A DNA stretch of 51,504 nt from Candidatus Hydrogenedentota bacterium (lineage in GTDB: Bacteria; Hydrogenedentota; Hydrogenedentia; Hydrogenedentales; JAEUWI01), in contig JAEUWI010000052.1 of assembly GCA_016791475.1 (NCBI GenBank), forward strand, positions 1-51,504. The letters are read 5' to 3'. Below the pieces are notes generated by a model that was not told the DNA's origin, did not search any database, and saw only the letters and a program-made list of their open reading frames with translations. Every line of letters starts with the position of its first letter. The first letter of the stretch is position 1. Of this stretch, positions 1-51,504 are shown piece by piece. The position numbers were made by a program, and so were the translations under genes.

Positions 1-120
1 GAAGGCGAAGGCGAAGGCGAAGGCGAAGGCGAAGGCGAAGGCGAAGGCGAAGGCGAAGGCGAAGGCGAAGGAGAAGGAGAAGGAGAAGGCGAAGGCGAAG
101 GCGAAGGCGAAGGCGAAGGA
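1..120 (+). repeat. Hexanucleotide tandem repeat encoding (Glu-Gly)n
   Basis: At least twenty copies of gaaggc, with a few gaagga variants, run from the window edge. They encode a Glu-Gly linker in the partial gene. The near-identical codons suggest growth by slippage. Confidence 0.95.
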
Positions 121-453
121 AGCCTGGCCGAACTGTTGCTCGAGAATTTCACTAGTGCCGACACCAATGGTGACGGATTGATTTCGCGAGCAGAGTCTTC
201 GGCGCTGTTCCCCGAACTGACAGAGGCCGATTTTGACGATCTGGATAGCAACGGAGACGGATTTCTCTCCCGTGCGGAACTGAACGGAACAACGGGCGGT
301 TGTGCCTGCCCGAGTCCGGATGAAGCGAAGGATTTCGGGCCGATTGGCCTGGTGATGACCTTGCTGGGACTTTTCGAGTCCGTGACGCGGATTCCGGGAC
401 AACTATTGCAATACATCTACGGGCTGATGCATCGAGAACCCGATCAGGAATAG
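1..453 (+). CDS. C-terminal part of a surface protein with (Glu-Gly)n linker, EF-hand pair and GGC tail (5' end outside window)
   Basis: The reading frame is open from base 1, so only the last 150 codons are seen. Twenty Glu-Gly dipeptides (1-120) lead into two canonical EF-hand loops, DTNGDGLISRAE and DSNGDGFLSRAE, which should bind calcium. A Gly-Gly-Cys motif follows, then a hydrophobic stretch and an amphipathic end containing RIPGQLL. The same order of parts closes the next gene (755-7027), so the two proteins are paralogous at least at the C-terminus. The tail looks like an anchoring or sorting signal, but it matches no named CTERM class that I know; that role is inference. A terminator-like hairpin follows the stop codon. 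What the missing N-terminal part does cannot be told. Confidence 0.8.
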   Translation, partial: EGEGEGEGEGEGEGEGEGEGEGEGEGEGEGEGEGEGEGEGSLAELLLENFTSADTNGDGLISRAESSALFPELTEADFDDLDSNGDGFLSRAELNGTTGGCACPSPDEAKDFGPIGLVMTLLGLFESVTRIPGQLLQYIYGLMHREPDQE

Positions 454-754: not shown

Positions 755-3700
755 ATGGGAACGCTATCGGGAATCAATCAGTTCGTCTGGAAGGGCGTAG
801 TGCGGGGCGCCATCGTCGTGGCGGGCACTTGCCTTGGCGTCGTGTCGGCCTGGGCCAATGAGACCCCCCCGGTAATCGATCAGGGTGACTCCCCCCTTCT
901 CGTCACGATGGACGAGGACGGCGCACCGACGGCATTTGTGGCCCCGACGCTCAGCGCGGTTGATCCCCAAGCCGATCCCATCATCTGGACGGTGAGCGTG
1001 CCCGCGACCCATGGCACGGCGTCGGTGGGCGGGGTGGGTCCGTCTCCGCTCTCGTTCTCCTATGTGCCCGACTCGAATTACAACGGCGCGGACAGTTTCA
1101 CCGTGCAGGCTTCCGACGGCACCCATTCCGATACGATTGTAATTGAAGTGACGATCAACGCGGTGAATGACGCGCCCGAGTTCGTGGGACAACTCGAATT
1201 CGCGGGAAAATGGGGCAGCACGGGGTCAGCCGACGGCCAGCTCTCCAATCCGCGCCTGATCGCGCTGGACAGCGCGGGCAACGTGTACGTTCCCGATGCG
1301 CAGAATCACCGGATACAGGTGTTTGATGCGGACGGGACCTTCCTCCGGAAGTGGGGTACTTCGGGCACGGGTGACGGGCAGCTCAATCAGCCTTCGGGCG
1401 TCGCGGTGGACGCGTCCGACAACGTGTACGTGGCGGACTATCAAAACCACCGGATCCAGAAGTTCACTTCCGGCGGAAGTTACCTGCTCCAGTGGGGCTC
1501 CCTGGGTTCGGCAGACGGACAGTTGAGCAGCCCAATCGGCATCGCCGTTGGCCCCTCGGGGCAAGTGTACGTTGCCGACAGTGGGAACGACCGAATCCAG
1601 GAGTTTGATGCCAGCGGGAACTTCGTAAGGAAATGGGGGGCCGACGGCACTGCCGATGGCGAGTTCCAAACTATTTTTGGAATTGCCGTCGATTCCCTGG
1701 GGAACGTGTACGTGCCCGATATTAGTCGTAGCGACCTGCAGGTCTTTGATGCGAACGGAACTTTTCTGCGCAAGTGGGGCCAGTCGGGTTCGGGTGACGG
1801 TGATTTTTCCGCCCCGTGGGGTGTCGCGGCGGACTCGGATGACCGAATTTATGTCGCGGAGTCTGGAAACAGGCGCGTGCAAATTTTCGAGTCGGACGGG
1901 ACCTTCGTCCAGAAATTTGGGAGCTCCGGCAGCGGCGACGGGCAATTCACTACCCCTTTTGCCATCGCTGTTGCATCGACGGGCCGGATCTATGTTGGCG
2001 ATCACAGCGGCAATCGCATTCAATATTTCGATACCTCGACTATCGGCGCGTCTGTCGCGGTATCCATGTCGGAGGACGGGAACCCGACGCCGTTTGCCTT
2101 GACCCTCAACGCGCTGGATGTCGATGCCGATACAATCACCTGGGCGATATCGAGCGACGCCACGAATGGCGTCGCGGCGGTATCCGGCACGGGCACGGAG
2201 AAGACAGTCGCCTACACGCCCATTGGCAATTTCAACGGCGTGGACAGTTTTGATGTGCAAATCAGCGATGGCCTGCTCACGGATACGGTTACGGTAAACG
2301 TAACCGTCGATCCGCAACAGGATCCGGTCGTCATTGACCAGGGCGCCGGCCCGCTGACGGTGACGATGGACGAGGACGGTGTGCCAACCGCCTTTGTCGC
2401 GCCCACGGTGTCGGCGACGGATGTCGACACGGTTGACACGCTGACGTGGTCCGTCAGTTCCCCCGCGTCCCACGGCACGGCGACGGTGAGCGGCACGGGC
2501 GTTTCACCTTCCACATTTACCTACGCGCCCGATGCGAACTTCAACGGCTCGGATGCGTTTACGGTTGAAGTGAGCGACGGCACGGATGCGGACACCATAG
2601 TTGTTGAAGTGACGATCGGCCCGGAAAACGACGCGCCGGAATTTCTGGGCGCCATCGGCTTCGATATCCGCTGGGGCGCGCCAGGTACTGGAAACGGCGA
2701 GTTGAACGAGCCAGCCCAACTCGCGGTGGACGCCTCGAACAACGTCTATGTCGCCGACTCGGCCAACCATCGCGTGGTGGTCTTCGACGCGAATGGGAAT
2801 TTCTTGCGCACCTGGGGTTCCGTCGGCACGGCCGATGGACAGTTCACGAACCCAATGGGTATTGATGTGGACGCCGCCGGTTACGTCTACGTGGCGGAGA
2901 ACTCGGGCAACCGCGTGCAGAAGTTCGACGCGAACGGCAATTTCGTTCTCAAGTTCGGCGAAGTGGGCACGGATCCGGATCAATTTCAGGGGCCGAGCGA
3001 TATCGCGGTGGGTGCTTCGGGCCATATCTATGTGGCGGATATCAGTTACAGCCGAATTCAGAAATTCGACGCCACGGGCGCGCACGTGACCACCTGGGGC
3101 ACCTTTGGAACGGGCGATGGCGAATTGCAGAACCCGAGCGCGATCACGCTGGACGGTGCCGAGAATGTGTATGTCACGGACCGATTGAACCACCGCGTCC
3201 AGGTATTCACGTCAACGGGCACTTTCGTGCGGGCTTTCGGCTCGAACGGAACGTTGAACGGTCAGTTCAGTTCGCCCTACGGAATCGATTTCGGTCCGGA
3301 CGGGTTTCTCTATGTGTCGGACAGCAACAACCGTCGGGTGCAGGTGTTCACCACCACCGGCGAATTCGTGAGCACCTTCGGTTCTCAGGGTACCGCGGAC
3401 GGCCAGTTCAGCTATCCCTTCGGCATCGCCGTTGGCGGTAACGGAACGATCTTCATCGCCGATCTCGTCGGCGCCATGATCCACCGCTTCTCGCGCGCGG
3501 ACGCATCGACTGTTAGCGTGACCATGGATGAAGACGGCACGCCGACGCCCTTCAGCCTCACCTTGAACGGTGTGGACGTGGATGCCGACACGATAAACTG
3601 GAGCATCGGCACCCAGGCGACTCACGGCGAAGCGTCCGTCAGCGGCACGGGCGCCAGCCAGCCGGTAAGCTATACGCCGGACGCGGACTACAACGGTTCG

Positions 3701-6700
3701 GATAGCTTCGTGGTGTCCATTTCCGACGGTAATGGCGGTACGGATACGCTTACGGTCAACGTGACGGTCACTCCGCAACAGGACACACCGGTTATTTCCC
3801 CAGACCCGGTCAATGTGACGATGGACGAAGACGGTTCGCCGATGGCCTGGGCACCTCCCGCGGTGTCGGCGATGGACGCGGACGGCGACGAAATCACCTG
3901 GACGCTGGACTTCGATCCCCAGTACGGCACGGCGACGGTAAGCGGCACGGGGGCTTCCCCCGAAGTGCTGGACTATGTACCGGATTCGGATTCCGCTGGA
4001 ACGGATATTTTCGGTATTCGCGCTTCCGACGGCAACGGCAACCACGACACGGTCTACGTGGTGGTCACCGTCACCCCGCAGAACGACGCGCCGGTCATCG
4101 ATCAGGGCGACGGCCCGCTGACGGTAACGATGGACGAGGAAGGCACGCCCACGGCGTGGGCCGCCCCGACTCTGAGCGCTGCGGATATCGACGGCCCCAC
4201 CAACTCGCCGGGAAGCAATGAGCAGGGCGATCCCACGCCCCAGGATCCGGTCGGCGATGAGCTTTCCTGGTCGGTGTTGACCCAGGCCTCCCATGGCACG
4301 GCGACCGTGTCGGGCGACGGGGCTTCACCGCTGACCTTCGACTATGTACCCGAGGGCAATTTCTTTGGTTCGGACAGTTTCGTGGTGCAGGTGTCGGACG
4401 GCAACGGCGGCACGGACACGATCCAGATTGACGTGACGGTAAACAATACCCACGACGCGCCGGTGATCGAACAGGCGGATCCGCTGGCGGTGACGATGGA
4501 CGAAGACGGCGCGCCTATTGCGTGGGACGCCCCCACGGTGATGGCCCAGAATCCGGACAGCGTGGCGCTCTCGTGGTCCGTGCTGACCCCGGCGACGAAT
4601 GGCGTGGCGACGGTATCCGGCGGCGTCTTGTCTCCGTCGGTGTTCGACTATGCGCCGAATGCCAACTTTAACGGTTCCGACAGCTTTGTCATCCAGGTGT
4701 CGGACGGCGATGGTGGCACGGACGAGATCACGGTGAACGTGACGATCAATCCGGTGAATGACGCGCCCGCCATCACGCAGACGGGGCCGATCACGGTGAC
4801 CATGGACGAAGACGGCACGCCGGTGGCCTTTGTGGCGCCGGCGGTCGACGCGACCGATGCGGACGGCGACCCGATCACCTGGAGCCTCGCGGTTTCCGCT
4901 TCGAACGGCGTTGCCACGGCCGACGGTGAGGGCGCGAGTCCGACGGAGTTGACCTACACACCCGCCGCGAACTTCAACGGTTCGGACAGCTTCACGCTGG
5001 AAGCGAGCGACGGCGAGGCGTCGTCGCAGATCGCGGTGCAGGTCACGGTGACCGCGCACAATGACGGGCCGGTTCTGGCCCTGAACTCGGGCGTGACCGT
5101 GGACGAAGGCGGCGTGGCCACGCTGGACGCGGGCATGCTCGAAACGAGTGACGTGGACGACGGGGCTTCGGATCTGACCTACACGGTCACAGCGGCTCCG
5201 GCCAACGGCGTTCTGGCGTTGATCTCGGAGCCTGAAACCTCGGTGACCACCTTCACCCAGGCGGATTTGAACGCCGCCCAGTTGATCTACACGCACAATG
5301 GCGGTGAGACCACGTCCGACAGCTTTGCGTTCAGCGCGGCGGACGGTGGAGAGGATGGCGCGGTGCCGGTGTCGGGTGTTTTCGAGATATCCGTAACGCC
5401 CGTCAACGACGCGCCGGTGCTCGACGCCATAGGCGACCGTGAAGTGGCCGAAGGGGCCACCATCACGTTCGGCGTGTCCGCAAGCGATCCCGAAGGCGAC
5501 ACACTGACCTTTGACGCGGCGGCGTTGCCCTCGGGCGCGAGCTTCGATCAGGAAACCGCGACCTTCACATGGACTCCGGCCTTCGACCAGTCCGGCGTTT
5601 ACGCGGGCGTGCTGTTCCGTGTGACGGACGATGGCGAGGGACCGTTGACCGATACCGAGACCATCAGCATCACCGTGGGCGATGTAAACCGCCCGCCGGC
5701 GCTGGACGAATTGTCGAATCAGGAAGTGCCGGAGGGCGCCACGCTGGCGTTCACGGTGTCGGCAATCGATCCCGACGGGGACGGGCTGAGCTTCGGCGCG
5801 GCCAATCTGCCCGAGGGCGCCAGCTTCGACCCGGAAACCGCAACCTTTACCTGGACACCGGGCTTTGAAGATGCGGGAGTCTATGCCGACGTGATCTTCA
5901 CGGTGACGGACGACGGCGCGCCGGCCGAGGGGGATTCTCAGAGCATCACGATCACCGTGGGTGACGTGAACCGCATGCCCGAGCTCGCCGCGATTGGCAA
6001 CCGCCAGGTGGACGAGGGGGGCGCATTGACCTTCCTGGTGACGGCGAGCGACGCGGATGGCGACACTCTGGTGTTCGGCGCGGAGAACCTGCCGGATGGC
6101 GCAACGTTCGATACGGAGACCCAGACATTCCAGTGGAATCCGGCCTTCAGCGACGGCGGAAGCCATGAAGTCACCTTCACCGTGACGGATGATGGTGAAC
6201 CCGCGCGGGGGGATAGCGAAACCATCACGATCACCGTGGGCGACGTAAACCGCGCGCCGGCGTTGAATCCCGTGGGCAATCGCGAGGTCACCGAGGGTGA
6301 CGCGCTCCAGATCGTCTTGACGGGTAGCGACCCGGATGGCGATACACTCGCCTTCGGCGTGGAGCATCTGCCCGAGGGCGCCCAGTTTGATTCCGAAACC
6401 AGGACACTGAATTGGGCGACTGTGACCGGTGATGCCGGAACGTACACGGTGACATTTGTACTCACGGACTCGGGGACACCACCCTTGTCCGACGACGAAG
6501 CCATCACCGTAACCGTGGTGGCTGGCGCCGGTGAAGGTGAGGGTGAAGGCGAAGGTGAAGGCGAAGGTGAAGGTGAAGGTGAAGGCGAAGGTGAAGGCGA
6601 AGGCGAAGGTGAAGGTGAAGGTGAAGGTGAAGGTGAAGGTGAAGGCGAAGGCGAAGGCGAAGGCGAAGGCGAAGGCGAAGGCGAAGGCGAAGGCGAAGGC

Positions 6701-7027
6701 GAAGGAAACCTGGCGACTTCGCTGCTGGAAAATTTCATGCGTGCCGACGCGAACAACGACGGTCTGATATCACGGGAAGAGTCCGCGCTGCTCTTTCCAG
6801 AACTTACCACAAGCCAGTTCGACGCGCTCGATTTGGACGGCGATGGCTTTCTGTCGCGCAATGAAATCCGCCAGTCGCAACCGGGCGGCTGCTATGGACC
6901 TGGTGCGCAGGCGGAACTGTTCATCGCGGCGTTGGGCGTTTTCCTGCTCAATTGTTTCGAGACCCTATTGAGGTTGCCCGGTCAGATCCTGGAGGTCCTC
7001 TACGGTGGCGCCACGAGGAACGAGTGA
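755..7027 (+). CDS. Giant exported surface protein: cadherin-like repeats, two six-repeat NHL propellers, (Glu-Gly)n, EF-hands, GGC tail
   Basis: This 2090-residue protein starts at an ATG 6 nt after AGGAG and has a signal peptide (cleavage probably after AWA, residue 34). Order of parts: a cadherin/tandem-95-like domain (38-137); six NHL repeats (about 146-430); two cadherin-like domains (433-630); six more NHL repeats (about 630-916); five cadherin-like domains (about 920-1440), recognisable by VTMDEDG at the start and FNGSDSF near the end of each; one CSPG4-type repeat (about 1441-1555); four putative-Ig domains ending TVGDVNR (about 1556-1925); 29 Glu-Gly dipeptides (1927-1984); two EF-hands (DANNDGLISREE, DLDGDGFLSRNE); then GGC and a hydrophobic tail with RLPGQIL. 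Six NHL repeats fit one closed beta-propeller, so two propellers are likely. The domain types point to adhesion or glycan/protein binding at the surface; no enzyme domain is visible. Confidence 0.93.
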   Translation: MGTLSGINQFVWKGVVRGAIVVAGTCLGVVSAWANETPPVIDQGDSPLLVTMDEDGAPTAFVAPTLSAVDPQADPIIWTVSVPATHGTASVGGVGPSPLSFSYVPDSNYNGADSFTVQASDGTHSDTIVIEVTINAVNDAPEFVGQLEFAGKWGSTGSADGQLSNPRLIALDSAGNVYVPDAQNHRIQVFDADGTFLRKWGTSGTGDGQLNQPSGVAVDASDNVYVADYQNHRIQKFTSGGSYLLQWGSLGSADGQLSSPIGIAVGPSGQVYVADSGNDRIQEFDASGNFVRKWGADGTADGEFQTIFGIAVDSLGNVYVPDISRSDLQVFDANGTFLRKWGQSGSGDGDFSAPWGVAADSDDRIYVAESGNRRVQIFESDGTFVQKFGSSGSGDGQFTTPFAIAVASTGRIYVGDHSGNRIQYFDTSTIGASVAVSMSEDGNPTPFALTLNALDVDADTITWAISSDATNGVAAVSGTGTEKTVAYTPIGNFNGVDSFDVQISDGLLTDTVTVNVTVDPQQDPVVIDQGAGPLTVTMDEDGVPTAFVAPTVSATDVDTVDTLTWSVSSPASHGTATVSGTGVSPSTFTYAPDANFNGSDAFTVEVSDGTDADTIVVEVTIGPENDAPEFLGAIGFDIRWGAPGTGNGELNEPAQLAVDASNNVYVADSANHRVVVFDANGNFLRTWGSVGTADGQFTNPMGIDVDAAGYVYVAENSGNRVQKFDANGNFVLKFGEVGTDPDQFQGPSDIAVGASGHIYVADISYSRIQKFDATGAHVTTWGTFGTGDGELQNPSAITLDGAENVYVTDRLNHRVQVFTSTGTFVRAFGSNGTLNGQFSSPYGIDFGPDGFLYVSDSNNRRVQVFTTTGEFVSTFGSQGTADGQFSYPFGIAVGGNGTIFIADLVGAMIHRFSRADASTVSVTMDEDGTPTPFSLTLNGVDVDADTINWSIGTQATHGEASVSGTGASQPVSYTPDADYNGSDSFVVSISDGNGGTDTLTVNVTVTPQQDTPVISPDPVNVTMDEDGSPMAWAPPAVSAMDADGDEITWTLDFDPQYGTATVSGTGASPEVLDYVPDSDSAGTDIFGIRASDGNGNHDTVYVVVTVTPQNDAPVIDQGDGPLTVTMDEEGTPTAWAAPTLSAADIDGPTNSPGSNEQGDPTPQDPVGDELSWSVLTQASHGTATVSGDGASPLTFDYVPEGNFFGSDSFVVQVSDGNGGTDTIQIDVTVNNTHDAPVIEQADPLAVTMDEDGAPIAWDAPTVMAQNPDSVALSWSVLTPATNGVATVSGGVLSPSVFDYAPNANFNGSDSFVIQVSDGDGGTDEITVNVTINPVNDAPAITQTGPITVTMDEDGTPVAFVAPAVDATDADGDPITWSLAVSASNGVATADGEGASPTELTYTPAANFNGSDSFTLEASDGEASSQIAVQVTVTAHNDGPVLALNSGVTVDEGGVATLDAGMLETSDVDDGASDLTYTVTAAPANGVLALISEPETSVTTFTQADLNAAQLIYTHNGGETTSDSFAFSAADGGEDGAVPVSGVFEISVTPVNDAPVLDAIGDREVAEGATITFGVSASDPEGDTLTFDAAALPSGASFDQETATFTWTPAFDQSGVYAGVLFRVTDDGEGPLTDTETISITVGDVNRPPALDELSNQEVPEGATLAFTVSAIDPDGDGLSFGAANLPEGASFDPETATFTWTPGFEDAGVYADVIFTVTDDGAPAEGDSQSITITVGDVNRMPELAAIGNRQVDEGGALTFLVTASDADGDTLVFGAENLPDGATFDTETQTFQWNPAFSDGGSHEVTFTVTDDGEPARGDSETITITVGDVNRAPALNPVGNREVTEGDALQIVLTGSDPDGDTLAFGVEHLPEGAQFDSETRTLNWATVTGDAGTYTVTFVLTDSGTPPLSDDEAITVTVVAGAGEGEGEGEGEGEGEGEGEGEGEGEGEGEGEGEGEGEGEGEGEGEGEGEGEGEGEGEGEGNLATSLLENFMRADANNDGLISREESALLFPELTTSQFDALDLDGDGFLSRNEIRQSQPGGCYGPGAQAELFIAALGVFLLNCFETLLRLPGQILEVLYGGATRNE
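6533..6706 (+). repeat. Hexanucleotide tandem repeat encoding (Glu-Gly)29
   Basis: Twenty-nine in-frame gaaggt/gaaggc units lie between the last Ig-like domain and the EF-hands. The 5' half is rich in ggt and the 3' half is pure ggc, as expected if blocks were duplicated separately. It parallels the tract at 1-120. Confidence 0.95.
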
Positions 7028-8450: not shown

Positions 8451-8477
8451 ATTGACAATGGACAATTGACAATGGAC
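8451..8477. repeat. Heptad tandem repeat (attgaca/atggaca)
   Basis: Almost four alternating 7-bp units, attgaca and atggaca, lie in the upstream region of the lipoprotein gene. They belong to a family also seen at 24434, 24513, 28748 and 36005. Confidence 0.85.
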
Positions 8478-9294: not shown

Positions 9295-9411
9295 ATGGGT
9301 CTTATGGGTCTTATGGGTCTTATGGGTCTTATGGGTCTTATGGGTCTTATGGGTCTTGGGGGTCTTGGGGGTCTTGGGGGTCTTGGGGGTCTTGGGGGTC
9401 TTGGGGGTCTT
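9295..9411. repeat. 9-bp tandem repeat array (13 units)
   Basis: Seven perfect copies of atgggtctt (9295-9357) are followed by six perfect copies of gggggtctt (9358-9411). The sudden change of variant suggests recent stepwise expansion. It is noncoding, between a PilZ and a cbiX gene. Related arrays are at 28627, 42926 and 51427. Confidence 0.95.
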
Positions 9412-9463
9412 GGGGGCGTATGGGGTGGCGGGCTGAGATTTTCGCACCGACCCATAGGAGCCG

Positions 9464-13549: not shown

Positions 13550-16500
13550 ATGATTTTGCGCGGTACACTTGCGCTGTGTGTCCTGACGGTCGGTTGCGCC
13601 GCGTTTGCGGCGGAGGTGGCGCCCACTACTGAGCCGATCAGCTTCAACCGGCATATTTGCCCCATACTCTCCGACAAGTGCTTTGCGTGCCACGGGCCGG
13701 ACGCCCATGCGCGCAAAGGGGATCTGCGGCTGGATCAGCCCCTGCCGGAGGCGTCGGCCCAGACCGTGCTGGCCCCCGGCCATCCCGAGGCGAGCGCGCT
13801 GGTGAAGCGAATTTTGAGCGCCGACCCGGACGAACAGATGCCCCCGCCCGATCAGGATAGACAGCTCACGCAGGGGCAGAAGGACCTGCTGGCGGCGTGG
13901 GTGGCTCAGGGCGCGCCCTTTGAGGCCCACTGGTCCTACATTCCCCCCGTACCCGCCCCGTTGGACCCGGCGGCGAGCCCCATCGATACATTTGTCGGTC
14001 GCAAGCTCGAACGCGAGGGGGTGTCGCCCATGCCCGAGGCCGATAAGGTCACGCTGGTGCGCCGCCTGTACTGGGACCTGCTCGGTATTCCTCCGAAGCC
14101 CGAAGTGGTTCAGGCTTACGTGGAGAGCACCGATCCGGGCGCCTACGGCGCGCTGGTGGATTCGCTTCTCGCATCGCCCCACTACGGCGAGCGCATGGCC
14201 ATGGAATGGCTGGATGTGGTGCGCTACGCGGATTCGAACGGCTACCACAGTGACGAGTTCCGCAGCATATCGCCCTATCGCGACTACGTCATCAAGGCCT
14301 TCAATGACAACATGCCCTTCGATCAGTTCACCCGCGAGCAATTGGCGGGCGATCTGCTCCCCGATGCGACCCGCGAACAGAAAGTGGCCTCGGGGTACAA
14401 CCGGCTCAACCAGATCACGGCCGAGGGCGGTGCGCAGGCGAAGGAGTATCTGGCCAAGTATGCCGCCGATCGCGTGCGGACGACGGCAACGGCCTGGCTC
14501 GGCACGACCATGGCCTGCGCGGAATGCCACGACCATAAATACGACCCGATATCAACGCGGGAATTTTATCAGTTTGAGGCCTTCTTCGCGGATATCGATG
14601 AGCAGGGCGTGTATGGTTCCGGCGGTATCTGGGAACCGCGGATGTACCTGCCCACGCCCGAGCAGGAAGCCCGGGAAGCGGCCTTGCTTGCCGAGATCCA
14701 GACCGTGCGGCAGACGCTGGCGTCCGAAACGCCGGCGTTGAAGGACGCCCGAAGGGCCTGGGAGGGCGCCCTCTCCGCACAGCGCGAAGGCTCCGTCCAG
14801 CCGTGGGTACGGCCCGAGCCGCTGTCGGTGACCGCCCAGGGCGAAACGACCTTTTTGACCATGCCCGACCGGCGCATACTGGCCTCGGGACCGGAGCGGG
14901 AAAAAGATGAGTACACGATACAGTTGCCGGGCCACGGCGCTCCGGTGTCCGCCCTGCTCCTGGAAGTGCTGGACGATATCCTGCTCGGCGGTGTATCCCG
15001 CGGCGGCGGGAATTTCCTGTTGACCAACGTCACGGCGGCCTGGCGCGGACCCGGCCTGGCCGAGAGCATTCCGCTGCCCTTCGCATCGGTCGCGGCGGAT
15101 TACGAGCAGGAGGGATTTCCCGTCACCAACGTGCTGGATGATGACGTGAAGAGCGGCTGGGCCGCCGATTCCCACAAGCACCGGGGGAATCATGCGATTG
15201 TTTTGCGCCTTGCCCAGCCCGTCACGCTGGAGAAAGGCGGGGTGCTGGAAGTGCGCCTCTACTTCAATTCCTCCTTTGCCGGCCACCAGATTGACAGTTT
15301 CCGGCTTGGCCTTACCGACGATACCCTCGCGGGCCGCACGCCCTGGCCCGTACTTCCCCCGGCGGTGAAGGCCGCGCTGTCCACCGAATTGATGGCGCGC
15401 ACGGCCGAGCATGATCAGGCCCTGGCAAGTTATTTCCTGGCCACGACCCCCGTGCTGGACGGTGAGCGGACCGCGCTCGCGAAGGCGGAGGGTGAGCTGA
15501 ACGCGCTGCGCGGTACGATGGCCACCACCCTGATCTCGCAGGCCCGACCCGAGCCGCGCACCATTCGGGTGCTGCCTCGGGGCAACTGGCTCGACGAAAC
15601 GGGCGAGATCGTGGAGCCCGCCACGCCCGCGGCCTTCCCCGCCCTCGGTGTGACTGGTCGCCGGGCCAACCGTCTGGATCTGGCCAATTGGCTGGTCAGT
15701 CGCGACAACCCTCTTACCGCGCGGGTGACCATGAACCGGCTTTGGAAACGATTCTATGGCACGGGTATCTCCAAGATAGTGAACGACCTGGGCGCCCAGG
15801 GCGAGTGGCCCACCCACCCCGAATTGTTGGACTGGCTCGCCGTGGAGTTCATGAACAGCGGCTGGGATCTGAAACACATGATCCGGTTGATGGTCACGTC
15901 CGAGACCTACCGCCGAACGAGCGAGGCGATTCCGGAACTGCGAAACCGGGATCCGTACAACCGCCTGCTGGCCCGGCAGAGCCGCTACCGGATCGACGCG
16001 GAAATGGTTCGGGACGGCGCGCTGGAAATGAGCGGCCTGCTTACACCCACGATCGGCGGCCGTTCCGTGTTTCCCTATCAGCCGGAGGGCTACTATGCGA
16101 ATTGCAACACCTTCGGCGGCGTGCTGGCCTACGATACGGAGAAGGACGAGAATCAGTATCGTCGCGGGCTGTACAGCTTCTGGAAGCGGACCTTTCTTCA
16201 CCCCAGCCTGCTGGCCTTTGACGCGCCCACGCGCGAGGAGTGTACGGCGGAGCGCCCTGTTTCGAATACGCCCCTGCAGGCCCTGGTGCTGCTGAACGAC
16301 CCCACGTATGTAGAGGCCGCGCGCGTCTTTGCCCAGCGCATTATGGCGGAGGGCGGCGAGGAGAGCGACGGCCGAATCAATCTTGCCTTCGCCTATGCGC
16401 TTTCCCGCGCGCCCCGACCGGAGGAACTGGCCCTGCTGCGCGATCTGTACCACCAGCATCTTGTGGAGTACACCAACGACCCGGCCTCGGCCGAGGCCCT

Positions 16501-16615
16501 GCTGAAGACGGGCCTCGCGCCGGTACCCGCCGGACAGAATCCCGTGGATCTGGCGGCCTGGACCTCGGTGGCCCGCGTCATCCTTAATCTGCACGAAACC
16601 ATTACCCGAAGCTGA
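13550..16615 (+). CDS. PSCyt1-DUF1549-DUF1553 domain protein (planctomycete-type)
   Basis: The 1021-residue exported protein starts at 13550 after ggagga, with a signal peptide ending near AFAAE (residue 21). It opens with a PSCyt1 domain bearing the heme motif CFACH, then a DUF1549 (PSCyt2) region (roughly 140-360; motifs EWLDVVRYADSNGYHSDE and CAECHDHKYDPIS, the latter a second CxxCH), a middle beta-rich region without clear assignment, and a C-terminal DUF1553 (PSD1) domain (about 700-1000; NPLTARVTMNRLWKRFYG, ERPVSNTPLQALVLLNDP). The family is typical of planctomycetes and relatives, is probably periplasmic and is linked to polysaccharide breakdown by genome context; the reaction is not established. 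It is followed by a DUF1501 gene, its usual partner, 20 nt on. Confidence 0.93.
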   Translation: MILRGTLALCVLTVGCAAFAAEVAPTTEPISFNRHICPILSDKCFACHGPDAHARKGDLRLDQPLPEASAQTVLAPGHPEASALVKRILSADPDEQMPPPDQDRQLTQGQKDLLAAWVAQGAPFEAHWSYIPPVPAPLDPAASPIDTFVGRKLEREGVSPMPEADKVTLVRRLYWDLLGIPPKPEVVQAYVESTDPGAYGALVDSLLASPHYGERMAMEWLDVVRYADSNGYHSDEFRSISPYRDYVIKAFNDNMPFDQFTREQLAGDLLPDATREQKVASGYNRLNQITAEGGAQAKEYLAKYAADRVRTTATAWLGTTMACAECHDHKYDPISTREFYQFEAFFADIDEQGVYGSGGIWEPRMYLPTPEQEAREAALLAEIQTVRQTLASETPALKDARRAWEGALSAQREGSVQPWVRPEPLSVTAQGETTFLTMPDRRILASGPEREKDEYTIQLPGHGAPVSALLLEVLDDILLGGVSRGGGNFLLTNVTAAWRGPGLAESIPLPFASVAADYEQEGFPVTNVLDDDVKSGWAADSHKHRGNHAIVLRLAQPVTLEKGGVLEVRLYFNSSFAGHQIDSFRLGLTDDTLAGRTPWPVLPPAVKAALSTELMARTAEHDQALASYFLATTPVLDGERTALAKAEGELNALRGTMATTLISQARPEPRTIRVLPRGNWLDETGEIVEPATPAAFPALGVTGRRANRLDLANWLVSRDNPLTARVTMNRLWKRFYGTGISKIVNDLGAQGEWPTHPELLDWLAVEFMNSGWDLKHMIRLMVTSETYRRTSEAIPELRNRDPYNRLLARQSRYRIDAEMVRDGALEMSGLLTPTIGGRSVFPYQPEGYYANCNTFGGVLAYDTEKDENQYRRGLYSFWKRTFLHPSLLAFDAPTREECTAERPVSNTPLQALVLLNDPTYVEAARVFAQRIMAEGGEESDGRINLAFAYALSRAPRPEELALLRDLYHQHLVEYTNDPASAEALLKTGLAPVPAGQNPVDLAAWTSVARVILNLHETITRS

Positions 16616-16635
16616 TATCCGGACAGGTGAAAACG

Positions 16636-18054
16636 ATGAAGTACGAAGATTTCCTGCTGGCCCAGACCCGGCGCCAGTTCTTTTCGCGATCGGCACGGGG
16701 TATTGGTTCGCTTGCCCTCGCCGGGCTCCTGAATCGCGTGGCCGAGGCCAGCACGAACGAAGCGAAGCTGGGCCTTATTTCTCCACTGCATCGTGTGCCC
16801 AAAGCGAAACGCGTGATCTATCTTTTCATGGCGGGCGGGCCGTCCCATCTGGAAACCCTGGACTACAAGCCGAAACTGGCGGAGCTGGATGGCCAGCCCA
16901 TGCCCGAATCGGTGACCCAGGGCCAGCCGATCGCCCAGTTGCAGGGCCAGACCCTGCGCTGCCTCGCCCCGCAGCACACCTTTGCACGGTACGGAAAATC
17001 CCAGCAGGAAATCTCCACGATTCTACCCAACATCGCGGGTATTGCCGACGATATCTGCATTATCCGGTCCATGCAGACCGAGCAGATCAACCACGATCCC
17101 GCCCAGACCTTCATGAATACCGGCACGTCCATCTCCGGGCGCCCCAGCATGGGAAGCTGGATCACCTATGGCCTGGGCAACGAAGCCGACAACCTGCCGG
17201 GCTTCGTGGTGCTGACTTCGGCCGGCGGCGGACAGAACCAGCCCATCGCCGCGCGGCAATGGCACAGCGGATTTCTTCCGAGCAAGTTCCAGGGGGTTCA
17301 ATTTCACTCCCAGGGCGATCCGGTGCTCTACCTGAGCAATCCCCAGGGTGTGAACGCGAAACAGCAGCGGGACGTGGTGGATGCGGTTCAGGCCATGAAC
17401 CAGTACCACGACGACGTTACCGACGACCCCGAGATCCAGACCCGGATCAGCCAGTACGAGATGGCCTTTAAAATGCAGACCAGCGTGCCCGATCTGGTGG
17501 ACTTCTCCGACGAGCCCCAGCACATCAAGGAGATGTATGGCACGGAGGGCTCGGACGGCACCTTTGCGTCCAACTGTCTGCTGGCCCGTCGCATGGCGGA
17601 GCGCGGCGTGCGCTTCATTCAGCTTTATCATCGCGGGTGGGATCACCACGGCGATGTAAAGAATGGCGTTGCGACCACGGCCGGTCTGGTGGACAAGGCT
17701 TCGGCGGCGCTGGTGAAGGATCTGGCCCAGCGGGGGATGCTGGAGGACACGCTGGTGATCTGGGGCGGTGAATTTGGCCGCACACCCATGGCCCAGGGCA
17801 CGGGCCGGGATCACCATATCCGCGGTTTCTCCCTGTGGATGGCGGGCGGCGGGGTGAAGGGTGGACTGACGCACGGGGCCACGGATGACTTTGGATACTA
17901 TGCCGTGCAGGATGTGGTCCACGTGCACGATTTTCACGCAACCCTGCTTCAACTGCTGGGCATCGAGCACACCAAACTGACCTATCGCTTCCAGGGGCGC
18001 GATTTCCGCCTGACGGACGTCGCCGGGAATGTGGTCCAGGCTATTCTGGCGTAA
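16636..18054 (+). CDS. DUF1501 family protein, Tat-exported
   Basis: The 472-aa product has a twin-arginine leader (TRRQFFSRSARG). I start it at the ATG at 16636, which has AGGTG 6 nt upstream; the GTG at 16627 is an alternative. DUF1501 is related to the alkaline-phosphatase/sulfatase fold, seen here in MAGGPSHLETLDYKP near the N-terminus, RGWDHHGDVKNG in the middle, and the metal-site-like VIWGGEFGRTP and GRDHHIRGFSLW near the C-terminus. It lies right after the DUF1549/DUF1553 gene, a pairing repeated many times in planctomycete genomes, so the two likely work together in the periplasm. Its 3' end overlaps the convergent STAS gene by 14 nt. Confidence 0.93.
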   Translation: MKYEDFLLAQTRRQFFSRSARGIGSLALAGLLNRVAEASTNEAKLGLISPLHRVPKAKRVIYLFMAGGPSHLETLDYKPKLAELDGQPMPESVTQGQPIAQLQGQTLRCLAPQHTFARYGKSQQEISTILPNIAGIADDICIIRSMQTEQINHDPAQTFMNTGTSISGRPSMGSWITYGLGNEADNLPGFVVLTSAGGGQNQPIAARQWHSGFLPSKFQGVQFHSQGDPVLYLSNPQGVNAKQQRDVVDAVQAMNQYHDDVTDDPEIQTRISQYEMAFKMQTSVPDLVDFSDEPQHIKEMYGTEGSDGTFASNCLLARRMAERGVRFIQLYHRGWDHHGDVKNGVATTAGLVDKASAALVKDLAQRGMLEDTLVIWGGEFGRTPMAQGTGRDHHIRGFSLWMAGGGVKGGLTHGATDDFGYYAVQDVVHVHDFHATLLQLLGIEHTKLTYRFQGRDFRLTDVAGNVVQAILA

Positions 18055-24433: not shown

Positions 24434-24468
24434 GGCAATGGACAATGAACAATTGACAATGGACAATG
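24434..24468. repeat. Heptad repeat array, left arm
   Basis: Five 7-bp units of the type caatgga/caatgaa/caattga, containing TTGACA once, lie in the divergent intergenic region. The right arm (24513-24546) is its near-perfect inverted copy. Confidence 0.85.
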
Positions 24469-28626: not shown

Positions 28627-28689
28627 ATGGGTCTTATGGGTCTTATGGGTCTTATGGGTCTTATGGGGCTTATGGGGCTTATGGGGCTT
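28627..28689. repeat. 9-bp tandem repeat array (7 units)
   Basis: Four copies of atgggtctt and then three of atggggctt, in the same orientation as the array at 9295. It lies between the MFS and ABC transporter genes. Confidence 0.95.
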
Positions 28690-28747
28690 ATGGGCGCGGA
28701 AAACTAGTATGGCAGTATGGTGAGCAACGATAACAGCAATGCATGCG

Positions 28748-33669: not shown

Positions 33670-35145
33670 ATGACTGACACCAACGTGAAAACTTCATCCC
33701 TTGCGCCGCCGTTTTGGTTGCTTGGTCCCCTTTCCGTTTTCTGTGGTATCGCCGCACTGGGGCTTGTGAGCGCGCAACAGGCCTATTATCCGTGGAGCAC
33801 CAAGGACGTGCTCGCGACATTGATGGGGGCGGTGCTCTGCACGACACTCATTCTAGGTCCTTCGCGCATCATCCTCACGCTGGTGTTTCTGCTGGCCCTG
33901 CTGGATCACCAGTTTCGTTCGCCGTTCATATTGCCCTTTGGCGGAGCGGAATGGCATCCCCGCGAGCTGCTGCTTCTCCTGCTTTTTCTCCACGCCGCCG
34001 TGAAACTGGTCCAATATCGTCTCTGGATACGCTGGACCCCTCTCCATGTTGCGATGCTGCTCTACACCGCAGTCTTCGCTTATGGCGCCTGGCGCGGGCT
34101 CTGGCTGGGGAATGATCCGCGCGCCATTATCGCGGAGTGTCGCGCCCCGCTGTTTCTGGGCGTTTTCTGGGTCTTCGCAGGCACCGTGAAGACGCCGCGC
34201 GACCTCTTCTACTATGGTTACCTCGCGCTGTGCGTTCTCGTGGTGCTGGCCGTTGTCACGATTGGCGCCTTCGCGTATTTTGCCGTTACCGGACCCATTC
34301 CGAACACGCAGAACGCCTTGGGCGAGTTCGTGCCCAGAATTGTAGCGGGTATCCCGCTCCAATCCATTCGCCCGAGCGGACATGCCTGGTTTGAGACGGC
34401 GCTGGTGGTCTCGCTGGGAATGCTTTTGTGTCCCGGAGAGCCCTGGTACCGAAAGGCCGTCTACGCGGGACTGACTATCCTCTTTGCCACCGCGGTGTGC
34501 GCGGGTCTGATGCGCACAGCACTCGTTTCCGTCTTTGTGTCGATCACCGTGTTGCTCTGGCTCAGCCTGCCGGGAGCGGCGAGGGCACTTTCATTTTCAG
34601 TGCTTCTCTTTGCGGTTGGATGCGCGGCATTCATGGCGCTTCTCAATCCGAACGGCGCGTATGGTCTGCCGAGTTTTCGGGACCGTTCCCTGAATGCGCG
34701 TGCGGTAGAAACGGCCGGCGCAATAGAAGCTATCCGCCAACAGCCCCTCTTTGGGTCTGGCTTCGGGGCTTCTTTTGAGGCGCTTGGACTTGCGCAAAAG
34801 GACAGCGCTTCCAGTGCGGTGCCCGTGGACTACCGCAGCCTGCACAACGTGTGGCTATACATCGCGTGGAAGGCGGGGCTGGTGGGTCTTGCGATGGCGG
34901 TGCTCGCTTTGGCCGTGATGCTCATCTACGGCCAGGGGATAGTCACGCGTCTTCCCACGATGAGTCAGCGGTGCCTGGGCCGTACCTTGCAGGCCGTGCT
35001 TGTGGGGCAGTTGGCGGCCTCGGCGGCCATGCCGCGCCTGACCTATGCGAACGGTGCGCTTTTTCTGGGTATTTGGGTGATGGCGATGGTGTTGCTGGAG
35101 CGGGAGGCGGAAGGCGGAAATGGTGATGCCCGCTCCAGCCAATAG
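33670..35145 (+). CDS. O-antigen ligase/polymerase-like membrane protein
   Basis: The 491-aa product has about a dozen membrane helices and, near residue 360-400, the pattern of the Wzy/O-antigen-ligase family: QQPLFGSGFGASF, then LHNVWLYIAWKAGLVGL after an extracytoplasmic loop. Such proteins polymerise or attach surface polysaccharide. No other O-antigen gene is next to it, but lpxA/lpxB are in the window, so LPS is made. The ATG at 33670 has only a weak AGG upstream. It converges on purN, with a 22-bp hairpin between. Confidence 0.82.
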   Translation: MTDTNVKTSSLAPPFWLLGPLSVFCGIAALGLVSAQQAYYPWSTKDVLATLMGAVLCTTLILGPSRIILTLVFLLALLDHQFRSPFILPFGGAEWHPRELLLLLLFLHAAVKLVQYRLWIRWTPLHVAMLLYTAVFAYGAWRGLWLGNDPRAIIAECRAPLFLGVFWVFAGTVKTPRDLFYYGYLALCVLVVLAVVTIGAFAYFAVTGPIPNTQNALGEFVPRIVAGIPLQSIRPSGHAWFETALVVSLGMLLCPGEPWYRKAVYAGLTILFATAVCAGLMRTALVSVFVSITVLLWLSLPGAARALSFSVLLFAVGCAAFMALLNPNGAYGLPSFRDRSLNARAVETAGAIEAIRQQPLFGSGFGASFEALGLAQKDSASSAVPVDYRSLHNVWLYIAWKAGLVGLAMAVLALAVMLIYGQGIVTRLPTMSQRCLGRTLQAVLVGQLAASAAMPRLTYANGALFLGIWVMAMVLLEREAEGGNGDARSSQ

Positions 35146-51426: not shown

Positions 51427-51504
51427 ATGGGTCTTTTGGGTCTTTTGGGTCTTTTGGGTCTTTTGGGTCTTTTGGGTCTTTTGGGTCTTTTGGGTCTTTT
51501 GGGT
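51427..51504. repeat. 9-bp tandem repeat array, running off the window end
   Basis: One atgggtctt and then nearly eight perfect ttgggtctt units, in the same orientation as the arrays at 9295 and 28627. It lies upstream of thiS. Confidence 0.95.

Follow-up and report, generated by a model that had tools for sequence, protein, structure and literature searches.

Introduction

The fixation of proteins on the outer surface of Gram-negative bacteria is only partly understood, and sorting systems such as PEP-CTERM, GlyGly-CTERM and MYXO-CTERM were found via their signals. Synerg-CTERM is a Cys-type tail that goes together with a CPBP protease, MrtS. In the MYXO-CTERM system, cutting is dependent on the Cys and needs the CPBP-family intramembrane protease MrtX, and both Cys lipidation and a type II secretion route of export have been proposed (PMC11980579). 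For JDVT-CTERM a single target adjacent to a single enzyme is described (PMC11980579).

Here we describe a C-terminal tail found in the uncultured phylum Candidatus Hydrogenedentota. The window, meaning the whole stretch of 51,504 nucleotides that was analysed, is contig C52 from base 1, and the genome it belongs to (own genome, G000) comprises 7.7 Mb in 529 contigs. We hold it probable, at roughly 60%, that the two tails of the window are an acid-ended variant of a Cys-type sorting or anchoring signal that is carried by many exported Hydrogenedentota proteins and is MYXO-CTERM-like in its working.

Two related C-termini in one contig

The frames at 1-453 and 755-7027 end on the same plan: (EG)n, LLENF, two EF-hand loops and GGC, then a hydrophobic stretch that leads to R(I/L)PGQ(L/I)L and a YG pair (Table 1). 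Pairwise alignment of positions 130-450 with 6716-7024 gave 52% identity over 97 aa, confirming the shared plan described in a first-pass annotation of this DNA. The tails 3' of the EF-hands, taken alone, are 35% identical over 48 aa (pair E 2e-8). Both frames have two canonical 12-residue EF-hand loops, matched in Pfam by EF-hand_5 in frame 1-453 (1.3e-8) and by EF-hand_6 in frame 755-7027 (8.7e-6), and nothing comparable to their (EG)n stretches was found in 100 shuffles. AlphaFold2 models of two sequences consist of an EF-hand pair (pLDDT ~75), disorder around the Cys and one weakly predicted helix, residues 72-100, with a mean pLDDT of 63. The modelled EF pair resembles calmodulin-type pairs in Foldseek, although weakly (best E 5.6e-3).

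Both frames had been read as large surface proteins. The size and surface status of the protein at 1-453 are unreadable because the contig start cuts the frame inside the (GAAGGC)n array that encodes its (EG)n linker, leaving the upstream part of the protein outside the contig.

Table 1. Features of the two C-termini and their proteins (window positions).
Feature	Position	Strand	Basis
C-terminal 150 aa of a protein truncated by the contig start	1..453	+	open frame, stop 451-453
(Glu-Gly)n linker, 20x GAAGGC	1..119	+	repeat/pattern search
EF-hand loop 1, DTNGDGLISRAE	160..195	+	Pfam EF-hand matches and sequence
EF-hand loop 2, DSNGDGFLSRAE	244..279	+	Pfam EF-hand matches and sequence
Gly-Gly-Cys, with the signal's invariant Cys	295..303	+	alignments
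Hydrophobic helix, predicted to be continuous with R-x-PGQ	334..387	+	sequence; weakly predicted AlphaFold2 helix (residues 72-100 of 107)
RIPGQLL...YG with an acidic terminus (net -2 over last 14 aa)	388..450	+	
2090-aa exported-type protein with NHL and cadherin/tandem-95/He_PIG repeats	755..7027	+	Pfam NHL, Big_9, Cadherin_4/5, He_PIG; NCBIfam tandem-95
Sec-type signal peptide at the N-terminus, expected to be cut after AWA	755..856	+	inferred from sequence
(Glu-Gly)n linker	6530..6705	+	repeat/pattern search
EF-hand loop 1, DANNDGLISREE	6746..6781	+	Pfam and sequence
EF-hand loop 2, DLDGDGFLSRNE	6830..6865	+	Pfam and sequence
Gly-Gly-Cys	6884..6892	+	alignment
Hydrophobic helix	6917..6970	+	sequence, alignment
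RLPGQIL...YG with an acidic terminus (net -1 over last 14 aa)	6971..7024	+	

The ends of own-genome contigs often lie within or close to (GAAGGC)n encoding Glu-Gly (e.g. C5, C77, C78, C89, C95, C104 and C107). A second repeat, with a 9-bp unit (TGGGTCTTN), forms arrays at window positions 9297-9416, 28627-28694 and 51428-51504, the last of these at the right contig end; it is a dispersed short tandem repeat and seems to break the assembly too. Arrays of a 7-bp unit (AATGGAC/CAATGGA) were found at 8451-8477 and 24436-24468 of the window and in contig C16 of the own genome (L233:4076-4792), and this unit is apparently dispersed as well. The window further encodes a Planctomycete-type PSCyt1/PSCyt2/PSD1 protein, after which comes a DUF1501 protein (13550-18054), and an O-antigen ligase-like membrane protein (33670-35145; Wzy_C, 1.3e-13).

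A common tail form in the own genome

A combined profile of EF-hands and tail, whose matches are driven mainly by the EF-hand part with the tail hardly selected for, gave 57 matches in the own genome. In viral contigs three matches were seen, all of them to EF-hands only. Among the best 30 of the 57, 27 are proteins whose C-terminus comes shortly after the EF-hands, each with a Gly-Cys and a hydrophobic tail; of the remaining three, two have internal EF-hands and one is cut by the edge of its contig. Five of the 27 have the R-x-PGQ form or a tail closely related to it, namely the two of the window and those at C106:4530, C78:5256 and C77:27023. The module is thus not confined to the two proteins in which it was first noticed. 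The other 22 have a Gly-Cys, a linker that is short but varies in length, a start resembling Gly-Asp-Leu-Phe-Leu-Leu-Gly, a Leu/Ala-rich helix and usually a basic end. An example of the common form is the tail on C5 of the own genome (L023).

A profile of this common tail matched ~40 places in the own genome, several of them without EF-hands. The common plan reads (Glu-Gly)n, often two EF-hands, Gly-Cys, linker, a helix starting Gly-Asp-(Leu/Phe)-Phe-Leu-Leu-Gly, and a basic end. In an alignment of 25 tails from families f1, f8, f9, f10 and f11 the Cys and the Asp are invariant. A Gly-Cys with a hydrophobic end was seen in only one of 355 other open frames of the own genome (at least 150 aa), and that one is a member of the class lacking (EG)n. 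EF-hands lie upstream of about 24 of the 30 own-genome tails inspected and, in families f9 and f11, of several tails as well. In about one fifth of the inspected own-genome tails (EG)n stands directly before the tail with no EF-hand, and EF-hands also occur internally with no tail nearby (L034, L041).

The R-x-PGQ tail

The R-x-PGQ tails align with the common-tail profile at an hhalign probability of 87 (pair E 3.9e-6), the Gly-Gly-Cys falling on the Gly-Cys, and the Asp of Gly-Asp being matched by the Asp/Glu that precedes the helix. Read from the sequences, their linker from the Cys to the Asp/Glu is shorter than in the common form and their helix is extended by R-x-P-x-Q-(L/I)-L. The last 14 aa are acidic in six of six (net -1 to -5), whereas common-form tails have a mean net charge of +2.05 over the same length (range 0 to +4, n=56).

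Tails of this kind are known from five proteins of the own genome and one of G001, i.e. from two species of one genus. The protein in G001 has an orthologue in G005 (55% identical) with an intermediate tail, GGCGGGARNLIDLFLYAFIAAIYGIWDAMNRFLGRFRSGSE, and a basic end. The R-x-PGQ tail looks like a derived form rather than an independent signal, because it occurs in six proteins only, aligns with the common tail and is connected to it by the basic-ended intermediate in G005. R-x-PGQ is thereby ruled out as the core motif; it is a minority variant of the signal.

The gene order around this protein is conserved between G001 and G005 (L152:1914-5463 and L153:589-4290), with a repeat protein encoded upstream of the variant-tail protein. 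This shared neighbour (56% identical over 597 aa) was considered as a conserved partner enzyme and rejected, as it has no Pfam domain and reads as an exported repeat protein.

Signal-like properties and comparison with known models

In each of the 56 tail hits measured, no more than 8 aa separate the end of the hit from the stop codon. No internal hits were found among them, and with ~40 tail proteins in the own genome the tail is far from limited to two. By a crude rule, which also passes 7 of 18 control frames of the window, some of these genuinely exported or membrane proteins, a Sec-type signal peptide is present in 20 of 20 complete own-genome tail proteins. Copy numbers reach 30 per genome, and the combination of many targets per genome with sporadic occurrence across genomes is seen for this tail. 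Together with the lack of an NCBIfam or Pfam model, these observations support the initial guess of an unnamed sorting- or anchoring-type signal. Export of these proteins and a sorting role of the tail are likewise supported, short of proof.

Whether searched singly or as 47 aligned tails, no tail scored above any NCBIfam 20.0 cut-off, and a Pfam search returned nothing on the tails. The MYXO-CTERM model of NCBIfam gave no match at E up to 10 with single tails and up to 1 with the 47 aligned tails, and GlyGly-CTERM was likewise without a match in NCBIfam. The best sorting-signal score was that of JDVT-CTERM, 12.5 bits (E 0.11, and 0.42 in another scan) against a cut-off of 27 bits. The common form does fit the general tripartite pattern, with its motif, hydrophobic helix and basic end; the end of the R-x-PGQ form is acidic.

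Closest in design is MYXO-CTERM/MrtX of the Myxococcota, with which the tails share an N-terminal signal peptide, an invariant Cys, a ~14-residue linker, a hydrophobic helix, a basic end and dozens of copies per genome. They differ from it in their conserved Gly-Asp helix start, in the lack of a match to any myxo model or of an Mrt_core protein over cut-off, and in the acid-ended variant of the window; in hhalign, only 6 columns align with the TraA tail. JDVT-CTERM/MrtJ is also a Cys-type tail with a CPBP protease, and among the sorting-signal models it alone was picked up more than once across the scans, but its model scores far below cut-off and the Hydrogenedentota tails number dozens per genome. 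The tails have no match to Synerg-CTERM, and the MrtS model stays below its cut-off. PEP-CTERM and IPTL-CTERM are tripartite C-terminal tails as well, with many copies per genome, and exosortases are present in the phylum. However, the Hydrogenedentota tails have an invariant Cys in place of a PEP or IPTL motif, and exosortase presence is uncoupled from theirs.

Distribution across the phylum

A broad tail profile, built from 25 tails of families f1, f8, f9, f10 and f11, was run on 68 genomes of the phylum. Tail matches were found in 27 of the 68, with at least three copies (3-30) in 22, and none in 41; these counts are lower bounds, as search sensitivity is limited, and they are underestimates because the (EG)n repeats break contigs. 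Family f5, a sister family, had no tail matches in this search in 27 genomes, nearly complete ones included. Within family f1, genera g1 and g3 have 8 to 27 tails and g2 none, and the split is exemplified by G005 with 25 tails versus G004 with none. Genomes of family f11 carry 3 to 30 tails each except those of genus g21, which carry none.

Among the matches listed for an (EG)n-GC DNA pattern, the Hydrogenedentota MAGs JAUIMA, CANKTP, CAIYET and JAPYPO had tails of this kind, and a Nitrospiraceae MAG (L287) as well as a Deltaproteobacteria MAG (L307) had similar ones. One tail of G003 is letter-identical to a tail in JAUIMA010000041.1 (isolate Co_bin.7), which makes G003 probably identical with this MAG.

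Candidate processing enzymes

The signal had been expected to co-occur with one processing enzyme. Three candidates were compared and none fits phylum-wide. CPBP proteases are present in 59 of 60 genomes of relatives. The known myxosortases were rejected as partners, since the core model Mrt_core was above cut-off in 0 of 60 genomes. Against the CPBPs of the own genome the MrtJ model reached 21.8-26.1 bits (cut-off 75) and the MrtS model 29.9-42.2 bits (cut-off 130).

A tree of 61 CPBPs contains a phylum-wide clade, a clade frequent in families f10 and f11, which is incompletely sampled, and a clade, with VEGG...GEEALFRG, that covers the five signal-rich genomes of the window's family without exception. 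Searched with its own profile, this last clade turned up in these five (G000, G001, G002, G003 and G005) and otherwise only in the tail-less G035; it is absent from G004 and G006. Its association with the signal has a Fisher p of 0.018 over 62 genomes, a value uncorrected for kinship. This family is absent from all signal-bearing genomes of f10 and f11, which rules it out as a phylum-wide partner, and it stays a lead. As a first guess, made by analogy, the processing enzyme may be a CPBP protease; one candidate of the own genome is encoded on C14 (97789-98394).

A divergent XrtH-like exosortase with Cys, Arg and His motifs was observed in 50 of 68 genomes (L184-L196, L204-L232), and downstream of its gene there are often a membrane gene and a conserved one of ~430 aa. 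In G005 a PEP-CTERM gene (L235:5290-6174) adjoins the XrtH-like enzyme, and a further PEP-CTERM tail was found in L117. A 1539-aa frame near the XrtH-like gene of G007 (L249:6527-11143) ends in NPTAVPLNIAPLLILGLLVVSLHTLRKRTLR, possibly another C-terminal signal.

Proposed mechanism and alternative explanations

We propose that the tail protein would be exported by Sec and held by its helix in the inner membrane, the C-terminal end remaining in the cytoplasm. The Cys would then be lipidated, an intramembrane protease would cut on the far side of it, and the lipid would keep the protein bound to the surface, in line with the MYXO-CTERM proposal. In the window variant, the shorter linker and the acidic amphipathic end may make cutting by the same enzyme less efficient or give a longer-lived membrane anchor. 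Lipidation, cutting, surface location and the identity of the enzyme are steps that we infer. Against this proposal it can be said that no candidate enzyme tracks the signal phylum-wide (CPBPs are nearly universal and Mrt_core hits lacking), that the window tails are without the basic end that defines a tripartite signal, and that the MYXO and JDVT models are not matched by score.

The tail could instead be a permanent, uncut membrane anchor, its Cys serving for lipidation or a disulfide only. Such an anchor, for the whole class or for the R-x-PGQ variant alone, is in our view unlikely, yet the most credible of the alternatives. The missing phylum-wide enzyme is consistent with it, as are the longer predicted helix (72-100) and acidic end of the R-x-PGQ form. 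However, the Gly-Asp, the Leu-rich helix start and the spacing are conserved across families beyond what a generic anchor needs, and the all-or-none, many-copy distribution is typical of signal/enzyme systems. Another proposal concerns the variant only. R-x-PGQ may represent a second signal type, evolved in the genus by charge inversion of the cytoplasmic end and an amphipathic helix, and served by its own enzyme or by calcium control through the EF-hands; two classes of calcium-binding surface proteins would then be sorted differently in one cell. We regard this as distinctly unlikely. Processing by the exosortase/archaeosortase system of the phylum, including the XrtH-like enzyme (ECGAI, NIFRL, HEYVWQ), is improbable. 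This enzyme scores up to 80 bits against the XrtH model TIGR04177 (cut-off 86), and in G014 its gene lies near a Cys tail on C341 (tail 146-271, enzyme 893-1762), a sole case that was unrepeated in 20 flanks inspected. It shows no association with the signal (18 of 22 signal-bearing versus 29 of 40 other genomes, p 0.54), was looked for in vain in G001 with its 23 tails, and is present in G027, G034, G015 and family f7, all with zero or one tail. The PEP-CTERM tails of these genomes are its likelier substrates. We rejected the XrtH-like exosortase as the partner on its distribution.

The EF-hands give rise to two further explanations. Calcium gating, in which they would sense calcium and control processing or export, was suggested in the first-pass annotation. 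It is possible, as the EF loops look functional from their sequence, with canonical loops conserved directly before the Cys and EF-hands preceding most of the inspected own-genome tails and several in f9 and f11; nevertheless we give it a low probability. The tails without any EF-hand and the internal EF-hands far from a tail argue against gating, and a calcium-stiffened stalk would explain the same layout. The paired EF-hands at protein ends, and the match of the structural model to calmodulin-type EF pairs, are also reminiscent of a dockerin-like docking module, with the tail as a mere membrane stub. This is very improbable: Pfam gave no dockerin hit, the Foldseek matches are weak, as given above, and calmodulin-like, and the Cys-helix tail also occurs without EF-hands.

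Implications for the Hydrogenedentota

In one branch of the uncultured phylum Candidatus Hydrogenedentota, many exported repeat proteins bear a signal that has no name yet. The clean split between presence and absence in close kin, as in G005 versus G004 and in genus g21 within f11, makes the search for the enzyme a defined computation, and the charge-inverted variant is a natural test of the requirement for a basic end.
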